Shown here one piece after another: positions 1,108-22,226 of a stretch of DNA of 37,602 bases. The translations under genes were made by a program, and so were the position numbers. Source of the DNA: Coriobacteriaceae bacterium (lineage in GTDB: Bacteria; Actinomycetota; Coriobacteriia; Coriobacteriales; QAMH01); the NCBI GenBank assembly GCA_021203765.1, contig JAJQAN010000047.1:1-37602 (forward strand). Direction: 5' to 3'. Each line of letters begins with the position of its first letter. The stretch's first letter is position 1. The notes under the pieces were generated by a model that worked only from the letters and a program-made list of their open reading frames with translations, was not told the DNA's origin and made no database searches.

Positions 1108-1147
1108 AAAAAAGGCCGCCGGCCATGTGCCGGCGGCCTTTTTTTAT
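1108..1147. terminator. bidirectional rho-independent terminator between convergent genes
   Basis: aaaaaa GGCCGCCGGC catgt GCCGGCGGCC ttttttt: perfect 10 bp stem flanked by A- and T-tracts. Confidence 0.93.
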
Positions 1148-5635: not shown

Positions 5636-6706
5636 ATGTCGATGAAGGAGATCGCAGATCGGGTCGGCGTGTCGGTGGCGACGGTCTCGCGCGTGCTGAA
5701 CGACCCCGATCACCGCTGTGCGTACCGGGACGAGATCCTGCAGGTGGCGCAGGATCTGAACTATGCGCCCAACGCCGCCGCCCGCAATCTCAAGTTGGGT
5801 GTGCGCGACGAGGAGGACACGAAGTTCCTCGCGATACTGATGACCCGGGCCGATGCCGCCGGCGTCGATCCGTTCTTCACCGAGCTCATCCGGTGCGTCG
5901 AATCCGAGATACACCGGACGGCGTGCATCCTCACGAAGGTGGTCTACCGCTCGATCTTTTCCGACGACCGCACCTGCGATGCCTCCGACGTGCAGGCTTT
6001 GGTCGACGAGGTCACCTCCGCCGACGGCCACAAGCCGGACGGCATCATCATCGTCGGAAAATGCGCTCCGCTGGCGCTCGAACAGCTCTCCCAGCACATC
6101 GCCGGCATCGTCTCCATCAACCGTAACTCGGCCAACTACCTGGTCGACGAGGTACACTGCGACGGGCGCAGAATTGCGGAGCTTGCCTGCGAGTACCTGA
6201 TCGGTCTCGGGCACACGCAGATCGGATATGTCGGGGCAGTCCATTCGGAGACACGCTACGAGGGTTTTGAGACGACGATCAGAGCCCATGGCTTGCAGAT
6301 CGATGAGGATAACGTCTGCGAGGTGGGGCTTTCGGAGGCGGAAGGCTTCGAGGCGATGGAGAAGATCAAATCATCTCCGAATCCGCCCACCGGCATCTAC
6401 TGTGCAAACGACATCATCGCGGTCGGACTGCTGAAGTATCTCTGGCAGCATCGCAACCAGGGTTACAATCCGTCCGTCATCGCAAGTGATGACATAGAGG
6501 AAAGTCAGAACACCAAACCGATGCTGACGACCGTACATCTCCCTCGTGAGGAGATGGCGCGCTTTGCGCTGCGTCTGCTCGTCGACCGCATCGACGGCGG
6601 ACATCAGTCGGTGGTCAAGCTGCAGGTGGAAGGCTCGCTCATGGAACGTTGCTCGTGTGCCGCCCCGGAGGAGACGGGGGAGCGGCTGCATGTAACACGT
6701 CCATAA
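5636..6706 (+). CDS. LacI-family transcriptional regulator
   Basis: N-terminal HTH MKEIADRVGVSVATVSRVLNDPDHR..YRDEILQVAQDLNYAPNAAARNLK and periplasmic-binding-like domain; preceded by gaggag. Confidence 0.95.
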   Translation: MSMKEIADRVGVSVATVSRVLNDPDHRCAYRDEILQVAQDLNYAPNAAARNLKLGVRDEEDTKFLAILMTRADAAGVDPFFTELIRCVESEIHRTACILTKVVYRSIFSDDRTCDASDVQALVDEVTSADGHKPDGIIIVGKCAPLALEQLSQHIAGIVSINRNSANYLVDEVHCDGRRIAELACEYLIGLGHTQIGYVGAVHSETRYEGFETTIRAHGLQIDEDNVCEVGLSEAEGFEAMEKIKSSPNPPTGIYCANDIIAVGLLKYLWQHRNQGYNPSVIASDDIEESQNTKPMLTTVHLPREEMARFALRLLVDRIDGGHQSVVKLQVEGSLMERCSCAAPEETGERLHVTRP

Positions 6707-6708
6707 AT

Positions 6709-6742
6709 GCAAACAGGCGACCCATACGGGCCGCCTGTTTGC
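6709..6742. terminator. hairpin between convergent lacI-family and hsp20 genes, probable terminator
   Basis: GCAAACAGGCG (6709-6719) ... CGCCTGTTTGC (6732-6742), perfect 11 bp arms; no long T-tract. Confidence 0.6.
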
Positions 6743-6814
6743 GAAAGGTGGGAGGGAAATGGGTCGAGTCGCTGTTCTTACGTTCTATCTTCCTCCGTTA
6801 CGCATGATGAGCGC

Positions 6815-7240
6815 TTAGCTGATGCTGATGCTCTTCTTCTCTTCGGGCTGCGGTTGCTCGATCTTCGGAATATCGAGCTTGAGGATCCCGTCTTCGAATT
6901 TCGCCTCGATGGCGTCCTCCTCGATTTCGTCCCCGACGTAGAAGCTGCGGCTGCATTTGCCTTCGAAGCGCTCCTTGCGCAGGTAGGTTCCCTTCTCATC
7001 GCTGTCCTCGTTGGACGAGGAGGTCTCGGCGCTGACCGTCAGATAGCCGTCGGCGATCTCCGCCTTGATGTCTTCCTTCTTGAAGCCCGGAAGCTCGATG
7101 TCCAGTTCGAACTTGCTGTCGCTTTCCTTGATGTTCGTCTTCATGAGCGAGCTGGTGCTCTTGGTGCTCTCCATGGGGAAGAGCGAGAAGTCGAACGGAT
7201 CGAGGAACCTCCGTGTATTCCGCGGTGCTAATGTTGGCAT
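6815..7240 (-). CDS. Hsp20/alpha-crystallin small heat shock protein
   Basis: FELDIELPGFKKEDIKAEIADGYLTVSAE...YLRKERFEGKCSRSFYVGDEIEEDAIEAKFEDGILKLDIPK; ATG at 7240 is 9 nt from aaggag (ORF track start 7249). Confidence 0.95.
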   Translation of the reverse strand: MPTLAPRNTRRFLDPFDFSLFPMESTKSTSSLMKTNIKESDSKFELDIELPGFKKEDIKAEIADGYLTVSAETSSSNEDSDEKGTYLRKERFEGKCSRSFYVGDEIEEDAIEAKFEDGILKLDIPKIEQPQPEEKKSISIS

Positions 7241-8283: not shown

Positions 8284-8974
8284 CGGTATACGGCTTACCC
8301 TCGGTATTGACGAGCTGTACGATCGCCAGATCCTCCTGTGAGGTATCGACGAGCGGGATGATCTCGTCTCCTTGACGGGCGGGGTTGCGGTACTCGACCC
8401 GCAGTCTGTGCGCATGCATCGTCTCGGGGACGAGATCGCAAGCCATGCGGATGTAGTTGGCGTTGTTGACGTGACGGTTGAAGTCGATGTCGGAGGGCTG
8501 GGCGATCAGGTGCCCGCATTCGCGCAGAGCTTCCTTCGAGGGCGCGATCTTGTTCGTGGGACAGTCCACTTCGACTTCCGGATCGAAGGTCACGGTCGCG
8601 ACGACGTCTTCATCGAGACGTATGGGACTGCCGGTGTCCATGCTGACGAAGGCCCCGACCGCACGGCTTGCGGCGCAGAGCTCGCCCTGCTCGTCACGGA
8701 TGGTCGTGTTGCGGTAACCGAGCTTGCTTTTGAAGTCGAAGATCCGTGTGGTGATCTCGAGGTTCTCGCCGTATGTCGGGAAGCGCATCACCTGCAGCTG
8801 ACGGGAGATGACCATCATGACTGCGTTGTTTTCGGCAAGGTAGTTTTCGAACGCGGGTTCCGATTCCATCCACATCTGTGAGCAATCCTGCATCATGCGC
8901 ACGACGGATGCGAGTGTGAGCACACCGTCTTCCCCCGTGTTGCTGATGGCGACTCTGACGGGCAGTGTGTACAT
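8255..8974 (-). CDS. acyl-ACP thioesterase
   Basis: Double hot-dog fold sequence with DIDFNRHVNNANYIRMA and 'GYRNTTIRDEQGELCAASRAVGAFVSMDT'. Confidence 0.88.
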   Translation of the reverse strand: MYTLPVRVAISNTGEDGVLTLASVVRMMQDCSQMWMESEPAFENYLAENNAVMMVISRQLQVMRFPTYGENLEITTRIFDFKSKLGYRNTTIRDEQGELCAASRAVGAFVSMDTGSPIRLDEDVVATVTFDPEVEVDCPTNKIAPSKEALRECGHLIAQPSDIDFNRHVNNANYIRMACDLVPETMHAHRLRVEYRNPARQGDEIIPLVDTSQEDLAIVQLVNTEGKPYTVMEFSDLCA

Positions 8975-20313: not shown

Positions 20314-21240
20314 GTGCTGATCGAGGCCTTAAAATCCCTGATCATCGGTATTGTCGAGGGCATCACCGAATGGCTCCCCATCTCTTCGACCGGTCATATG
20401 ATCCTGGTCGATGAGTTCATCCATTTGGATGTCTCCGAGGAGTTTTTGGATCTCTTCCTGGTTGTCATTCAGATCGGGGCGATCCTTGCCGTCATCATCC
20501 TGTACTTCCGCAAGCTCAACCCCTTTTCCTTCCACAAGACGCGTGAGGAGAAGCGCGGAACCTGGCGTCTGTGGGGTCTGGTCGTCATCGGTTGCATCCC
20601 GGCGCTCATCTTCGGCGTCCTCCTCGACGACTGGATGGAGGAGCATTTCTACAACGCCTACGTGGTGGCCGCTGCCCTTATCGTCTACGGCATCGTCTTC
20701 ATCCTGATCGAGCACCGCAATCGTAAGCGCTTCAAGCAGTTCAAGGCCGCGGCTGCCAAGCCCGGCAAGCATTCCCTACCGTCTGCCGACGGTTCGCTCG
20801 AGGTGAGCCCCGACGAGATGTTCAAAATCCGTACCGTCGACGATATCGACTGGAAGACGGCCCTTAAGATCGGCTGCTTCCAGGTACTCGCCATCATCCC
20901 GGGCACCTCGCGGTCCGGCTCGACGATCATCGGTGGCATGCTGGTCGGTTGCTCGCGCACGGCCGCCGCCGAGTTCACCTTCTTCCTCGCCATCCCGGTC
21001 ATGCTTGGGTGGGGCCTGTTGCGCGCCATTCGCTACGTGGCGCAGATCGGCCTGACGATGACCAGCACCGAGGTCGTCGTCCTCGTCGTCGGCATTGTCT
21101 CCGCCTTCATCGTCGCCGTCTTCGCCATCCGCTTCTTGATGGGCTACATCAAGAAAAACGACTTCACCGCCTTCGGCGTCTACCGCATCATCGTCGGTGT
21201 CGTCGTCTTGGTCTACTTCGGCATCCGCGCCCTCCTCTAA
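20314..21240 (+). CDS. uppP: undecaprenyl-diphosphatase
   Basis: GIVEGITEWLPISSTGHMILV and IIPGTSRSGSTIIGGML motifs; GTG start. Confidence 0.96.
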   Translation: MLIEALKSLIIGIVEGITEWLPISSTGHMILVDEFIHLDVSEEFLDLFLVVIQIGAILAVIILYFRKLNPFSFHKTREEKRGTWRLWGLVVIGCIPALIFGVLLDDWMEEHFYNAYVVAAALIVYGIVFILIEHRNRKRFKQFKAAAAKPGKHSLPSADGSLEVSPDEMFKIRTVDDIDWKTALKIGCFQVLAIIPGTSRSGSTIIGGMLVGCSRTAAAEFTFFLAIPVMLGWGLLRAIRYVAQIGLTMTSTEVVVLVVGIVSAFIVAVFAIRFLMGYIKKNDFTAFGVYRIIVGVVVLVYFGIRALL

Positions 21241-21243
21241 TCC

Positions 21244-21267
21244 GTGCATCGCCATCCGGCGATGCAC
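21244..21267. terminator. perfect hairpin immediately after uppP, possible terminator
   Basis: GTGCATCGCC atcc GGCGATGCAC; no clear T-tract. Confidence 0.5.
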
Positions 21268-21354
21268 GCACACGTTCCCTTTCCCCCTCACTTAAGCCAA
21301 TACCTTGCGATGCAGGCCTGCGCGCCTGCGAACACCTTCCGCTGCTAGTACGAC

Positions 21355-21627
21355 AACGATTCCAGAGGCGCGGATGTGTCTTTGAAAGCTTTGAAAAGAC
21401 ACTCCACAACATCCCGCCTAAGGCGTGCAGATATCTAAGGAGGCGGGAGTGTGCCTGCGAAAGCTTGCAGCAGGTACCTCCCGGCTCCGTTAAATCTGCA
21501 GGTGTTTAGGAGGTGTGGATGTGTCCTTGAAAACTTGGAAAGGGCACTCCACACCTCTCTCAGTAACGATTCCAGAGGCGCGGGTGTGCCTGTGAAAACT
21601 TGGAAAAGGCACTCCGCGCCTCTTTTA
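21355..21627. repeat. array of four tandem imperfect 65-75 bp hairpin repeats
   Basis: Units with an aligned bulged T at 21375, 21450, 21520 and 21585; each has a 6-8 bp apical stem, bulged T, basal stem (9-11 bp in units B-D) and a GAAARCTT-containing loop; 19 bp identity aacgattccagaggcgcgg at 21355-21373 and 21565-21583. Confidence 0.88.
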
Positions 21628-21728
21628 ATAGAGCCCCAAGCACTTCGGGGCATTGTGTGGAAGGTGTTCGCAGGTCGGTGCACGCGCGTACAATGGGATT
21701 ATTGCAGGCTGTGTACAAGGAGTGAGAC

Positions 21729-22226
21729 GTGCATCGCAAGGTATTGGTGCCCGGCACCTTTGACCCCATGACCCTCGGGCACATCGACATCGTGGAGCGT
21801 TCGAGCAAGCTCTTCGACGAAGTCGTCGTCGGAGTGGCCGCTTCGCAGAACAAGGGATCGGGGCCGCTCTTTTCTCTCGATGAGCGGGTCGACCTTGCAT
21901 CTGCCGCCACGGAACATCTTGCGAACGTCACCGTGGAACCGTTCAGCATCATGTTGGTGGACTTCGCCGCCTCCATCGGTGCAGACGCCATTGTCAAGGG
22001 TCTGCGTGTCACCACCGATTTCGAGGACGAGTTCCAGATGGCGGCGTTGAACTATCGTCTCAAGCCCGAACTGGAAACCTTGTTCATCATGTCCGATCCC
22101 GAGCACATGTATGTCTCCTCCTCGATCGCCAAGGAAATCGCCTCCTTTGGCGGTCCCTTGACCGGTCTGGTGCCTACGGCGGTTGAGCAGGCGCTGCGTA
22201 AGAAGTATCCGGCCGCAACGGCTTAA
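21729..22226 (+). CDS. coaD: phosphopantetheine adenylyltransferase
   Basis: KVLVPGTFDPMTLGHIDIVERSSKLFDEVVVGVA, KGLRVTTDFEDEFQMAALNYRL, 'YVSSSIAKEIASFGG'; GTG start. Confidence 0.97.
   Translation: MHRKVLVPGTFDPMTLGHIDIVERSSKLFDEVVVGVAASQNKGSGPLFSLDERVDLASAATEHLANVTVEPFSIMLVDFAASIGADAIVKGLRVTTDFEDEFQMAALNYRLKPELETLFIMSDPEHMYVSSSIAKEIASFGGPLTGLVPTAVEQALRKKYPAATA

Follow-up and report, generated by a model that had tools for sequence, protein, structure and literature searches.

The region between uppP and coaD in a Coriobacteriaceae genome contains four imperfect hairpins in tandem, and the question is what kind of element they represent. The original prediction, made from the sequence of one contig (JAJQAN010000047.1, 37,602 nucleotides, here called the window), had offered a REP/MITE-like repeat family, a tandem structured RNA or a protein-binding array, and had argued from paired substitutions that the fold itself is selected or copied. 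We studied the array, its copies in the host genome, their structure and context, and the distribution of the family in other genomes.

The array between uppP and coaD

All four tandem units are present at 21364-21624 (Table 1) and the loops start at 21384, 21459, 21529 and 21594, which reproduces the predicted spacings of 75, 70 and 65 bp. Each unit folds better than 200 of 200 dinucleotide shuffles, with z-scores of -3.9 for A, -5.5 for B, -6.5 for C and -5.6 for D. The common architecture that had been described, a basal stem, an extrahelical T, an apical stem and a loop with GAAA(A/G)CTT, is found in units B, C and D; the basal stem of unit A is broken, as had also been noted, and the hairpin refolds. 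Pfam matches agree with the proposed location between uppP and coaD. Orthologues of coaD occur in five of the six family relatives. In a search for empty sites, the two genes were not adjacent in the nearest relatives and synteny is not kept, with a single genome representing the genus.

We rejected a coding repeat for three reasons. With spacings of 70 and 65 bp the units are out of phase; in the frame that the other units leave open, A, C and D carry a TGA in place of CGA; and the ORFs over the array have no Pfam match. Two further strong hairpins in the window (1108-1144 and 6709-6742) are unrelated to the repeat units; the first, with its runs of T and A, resembles an intrinsic terminator that works in both directions.

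Table 1. Positions of the hairpin units, their neighbours and associated features. Units and flanking genes are given in window coordinates; C and L labels without a genome prefix refer to contigs and stretches of the host assembly.
Feature	Position	Strand	Details	Covariance-model match
Hairpin unit A	21364-21414	+	51 nt, degenerate basal stem; loop GAAAGCTTTGA at 21384-21394	21358-21420, 53 bits, E 6.5e-10
Hairpin unit B	21439-21489	+	51 nt, bulged T; loop GAAAGCTTGCA at 21459-21469	21433-21495, 71.6 bits
Hairpin unit C	21509-21559	+	51 nt, bulged T; consensus loop GAAAACTTGGA at 21529-21539	21503-21565, 74.8 bits
Hairpin unit D	21574-21624	+	51 nt, bulged T; consensus loop GAAAACTTGGA at 21594-21604	21568-21630, 75.5 bits
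uppP	20314-21240	+	Undecaprenyl-diphosphatase, BacA family; upstream neighbour of the array; PF02673, E 7e-87	
coaD	21729-22226	+	Phosphopantetheine adenylyltransferase-type cytidylyltransferase (CoaD-type nucleotidyltransferase); downstream neighbour; PF01467, E 9e-25	
Multi-unit arrays	C57; C43; C7, C50, C36, C4		Four units; three units; two units each	
Contexts of the arrays		all sense	uppP; fol genes/DivIVA-like; 5' of ABC gene; before tRNA-Ser; 5' of pyrR; CCA-enzyme/IleRS	
Single units	C45, C14, C3, C22; C27; C1		One place each; two distant places; two places 2.3 kb apart	
Direct repeats on C1	L050:4357-4497, 6696-6835		141 bp	
AGGGGGC(TGC/GAA/TTC)GCCCCCT-like hairpin	L041:4348, L044:4493, L048:5073 and 5228			
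100-N gaps	L041:5107-5206, L042:4731-4830, L043:7261-7360, L047:4211-4310, L048:5115-5214 and 8652-8751			
RAYT-like Y1 transposase, sister genomes	G005:C1:95039; G006:C2:63370		Flanked by AATGAGACAAA..TTTGTCTCATT palindromes	

Copies in the host genome

The host assembly is a Coriobacteriia MAG of 1.2 Mb that is 90% complete. A BLAST search of the array against this genome returned matches on ten contigs besides the window's own. We aligned 15 units to construct a first covariance model, which detected 22 units at E <= 4e-6, distributed over 12 contigs. A second model constructed from all 22 units added a degenerate 23rd in the C43 array. The family therefore comprises about 23 copies (22-23) at 14 intergenic places on 12 contigs. 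The mean identity between copies is 64-66%. Recent tandem duplication was rejected as the source of the arrays, since the identity within a locus (66%) about equals that between loci (64%). Of about 13 loci, four are no more than 550 bp away from a contig end, where 0.7 would be expected, so that assembly gaps may hide further copies and possibly a transposase.

Some further features were observed close to the units. On C1 two bulge-less variant units lie inside the 141-bp direct repeats, which are 80% identical and bracket a P-type ATPase-like gene and an ArsR regulator. A short perfect hairpin, possibly a second small repeat, occurs at most ~220 bp from units at three places. The 100-N gaps between identical 55-mers are assembler joins, and three of them lie within ~130 bp of a unit.

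Structure and covariation of the repeat unit

Each unit spans 51 nt and consists of an 11-bp basal stem, one bulged base, an 8-bp apical stem and a loop that is 11 nt long in all units and near-invariant (consensus GAAAACTTGGA). The bulged base is T in 17 of the 22 units, A in two and absent in three. The average identity to the consensus was 96% for the loop, 79% for the apical stem and 73% for the basal stem and dropped to 47% in the flanks. Only a few bases beyond the foot of the hairpin the per-position information is down to background, which identifies the hairpin as the unit.

Standard pairs account for 93% of the pair cells, and 14 of the 19 pairs changed on both sides over the 22 units, which bears out the compensatory substitutions that had been reported from four units. 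As a small correction, some of the supposed T-A/C-G swaps in the apical stem are wobble replacements (T-G) and no full swaps. The covariation score was 0.525. Shuffles gave 0.294 +/- 0.018, with none of 500 reaching the observed score, and slid controls gave 0.11-0.22; the structure was suggested by the same sequences, and the seven of 22 units that were not used in drawing it were also found and aligned by the model. We conclude that the fold and the loop are conserved while the letters of the stems vary.

The mispairs also distinguish the two strands. On the loop strand G-T mispairs number 52 and A-C mispairs 17 over both stems; the apical stem alone accounts for 33 and five of them. Much of the excess comes from two columns, and without them the counts are 29 and 17 (p about 0.05). 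G-T pairs occur at columns 21-44 in 13 and at columns 22-43 in ten of the 22 units. Every G-T on the loop strand would be an A-C on the other one, so the excess of G-T shows that conservation acts on the fold of the GAAAACTTGGA strand.

Genomic context and orientation

Gene calls around the units were based on coding frames with the GC3 signature of the genome or with Pfam matches, and by these frames every unit is intergenic. The neighbours are unrelated and mostly housekeeping genes (uppP/coaD, pyrR, CCA-enzyme/IleRS, LeuRS, moeA, cyclophilin and aroC). A folate gene and a DivIVA-like gene, both named by eye from reading frames, and a tRNA-Ser, likewise named by eye, were further neighbours.

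Adjacent units within arrays are arranged head to tail in nine of nine pairs (p 0.002 if orientation were random), and all six multi-unit arrays are sense to their neighbours. The eight singletons differ: five are antisense to both neighbours, two (one on C27 and one on C1) lie between convergent genes and the one on C22 has a single known neighbour, to which it is antisense. Where both neighbours agree in direction, four of four arrays and none of five singletons are sense (p 0.008), a contrast observed post hoc. In five singletons the distance from the end of the unit to a stop codon is 3-30 bp. When we checked for a lagging-strand bias, the GC skew followed gene orientation only and was uninformative on that bias.

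Distribution beyond the host

The sampled family comprises seven genomes, with the host as the only one of its genus. Among 398 further genomes of the order and 396 further ones sampled from the phylum, the covariance model detected no copy, and the core pattern was absent from 399 other genomes of the class as well as from the GTDB and the viral contigs. No match was found by BLAST in plasmids or phages. For all of these collections the records nearest to the host may be missing. Weak matches in family genomes (E 0.08-4) were considered as possible homologues and taken as noise. Rfam gave no match in the window at the gathering threshold, and a relaxed search returned sub-threshold microRNA noise only. 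The scan for the family detected further copies in the host, where every copy is intergenic, and none in its relatives.

Comparison with known repeat systems

The end hairpin of IS608 has an extrahelical T, and in this respect the units resemble the end hairpins of the IS200/IS605 elements. However, no TnpA or TnpB gene was found and there is no element body between the units.

The units also resemble GTAG REPs and REPINs, which are mobilised by RAYT (TnpA-REP) transposases. They are dispersed, intergenic, multi-copy imperfect palindromes that form clusters and have a strand-specific folded form. They also have the long form of these REPs, a basal stem, a bulge of 1-3 nt and an apical stem, here 11 bp, 1 nt and 8 bp. 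TnpA-REP is known to use a bulge in the hairpin for recognition (PMC8266576), and RAYT-REP pairs exist in the sister genomes G005 and G006. GTAG REPs have GTAG/GTRG at their 5' foot, but in the units a GTAG/GTGG foot was found within 8 nt of the hairpin base in only one of 22 units on the loop strand and in none on the other strand, and the host assembly has no RAYT. The loop has 11 conserved nucleotides, whereas the prediction rule for REPs requires 2-5 nt (PMC6006769). Clusters of REPs are mainly head-to-head or tail-to-tail dimers and head-to-tail dimers are rare (PMC3733652), whereas the arrays of the host are exclusively head to tail. The copies are also few, old and diverged.

CGTC REPs are likewise palindromic repeats without a dedicated transposase. 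In contrast to these, the units form no head-to-head dimers and have a 19-bp stem with a bulge instead of 8-9 bp and a loop of 11 instead of 4-5 nt. At the 22 hairpins no CGTC tag was found on the opposite strand close to the 3' base, and the 5' side was inspected by eye only. By the definitions in PMC3733652, PMC6006769 and PMC8266576 the unit is REP-like in outline and is not a member. Of the three readings originally offered, that of a REP/MITE-like family fits best, with a structured ncRNA and a protein-binding array as possible but less favoured ones. With no tag, no assembled Y1 transposase and adjacent units arranged only head to tail, the family lies outside the defined GTAG and CGTC REP superfamilies.

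Origin of the family and alternative explanations

The most economical reading is that of a lineage-specific REP-like family, with RNA hairpin sites as its chief rival. We consider the chances about even that the array consists of four copies of such a dispersed palindromic repeat whose mobiliser was lost or is unassembled. The loop strand, when single-stranded, would fold, and a hairpin-binding protein would read the fold strand-specifically through the bulged T, the adjacent GTG/CAC pairs and the loop. The likeliest reader would be a Y1/HUH (RAYT-type) transposase, now lost or encoded in the unassembled part, by which the units would have been dispersed as non-autonomous elements. Old copies would then stay folded through residual selection or because the hairpins are still in use. 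The patchy range, with copies in the host only, is typical of fast-turnover repeats and was counted in favour of the REP-like reading. Against it stand the low identity among the copies, unlike that of young REP populations, the failure to find a target-site duplication or an empty site, and the 90%-complete host assembly, in which neither a Y1 transposase (PF01797) nor TnpB (PF07282) was detected. The association with a Y1/REP transposase that had been suggested was accordingly not observed in the host.

Y1 transposase genes were present in three of the six family relatives (G001, G005 and G006). In G005 and G006 the gene has copies of another palindrome, AATGAGACAAA..TTTGTCTCATT, on its flanks, and 300 kb of G005 yielded 16 copies of this palindrome. 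These repeats and the Y1 gene constitute a REP-RAYT system in Coriobacteriia, and such systems hence operate in the family with another repeat.

Alternatively, the units could act in transcripts as RNA hairpins whose loop and bulge are read by an RNA-binding protein or a small RNA, for example in 3'-end protection, processing or regulation. We regard this as possible but with a clearly smaller probability. The bias of G-T over A-C and the one-sided wobble toggling in the apical stem speak for RNA, as do the strictly conserved loop on variable stems and the six multi-unit arrays that are sense to their neighbours. However, a clear sense orientation is seen in none of the eight singletons, the neighbouring genes do not constitute a regulon, and the family is absent from all other genomes examined in the order and from Rfam. 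Folding alone fits RNA and single-stranded DNA equally. A more elaborate version is that of a genus-specific, genome-wide set of hairpins, conserved in structure and loop, which a dedicated trans-acting factor would read as RNA, with arrays kept sense-only and singletons antisense at gene ends; that a post-transcriptional system of this kind evolved from a repeat seems rather unlikely.

Inert old copies are less probable still. Quasi-palindrome correction is an established mutational process in which one arm is rewritten from the other, and such intrastrand template switching could generate paired stem changes without selection on the fold. It requires no function and agrees with the observation that units of one array are no more alike than units of different loci. 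Yet correction would erase the bulged base, which is kept as T or A in 19 of 22 units, and equally the recurrent G-T pairs at columns 21-44 and 22-43, and it does not explain why conservation is higher in the loop than in either stem. Some of the paired changes may be due to arm-to-arm correction; the kept bulge, the wobbles and the loop are unexplained by it.

Recombination sites of the integron attC type also fold as single strands with extrahelical bases. The units share with them a conserved fold on variable stems, an extrahelical base and a strand preference, and two units in direct orientation flank the P-type ATPase-like/ArsR module. The loops are the variable part of attC sites, whereas the loop is the conserved part of the units. 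Their ends, inspected by eye, are GGAGG/CCTCC-like and lack R/L core boxes (GTTRRRY/RYYYAAC). The units adjoin housekeeping genes and the arrays contain no cassettes. This origin is very improbable. Intrinsic terminators are just as improbable: the hairpins are GC-rich and often lie just 3' of genes, but no T run follows them, a scan of window positions 21200-21760 found no terminator-like site and ordinary terminators adjoin the units at C45, C27 and C50.

Implications for the family

The original interpretation is partly supported. Further copies and strong covariation across 22 units were found and no reading frame is conserved, in agreement with its central claim of a conserved fold. What emerges is a palindromic repeat family without tag or transposase, arranged head to tail, in which the fold and the loop are kept at only ~64% shared letters. 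The family raises the question of how such repeats persist, with site-by-site selection, ongoing copying and mutational correction as the candidates. As sister lineages still carry REP-RAYT systems, the gain and loss of a mobiliser can be compared directly within the family.
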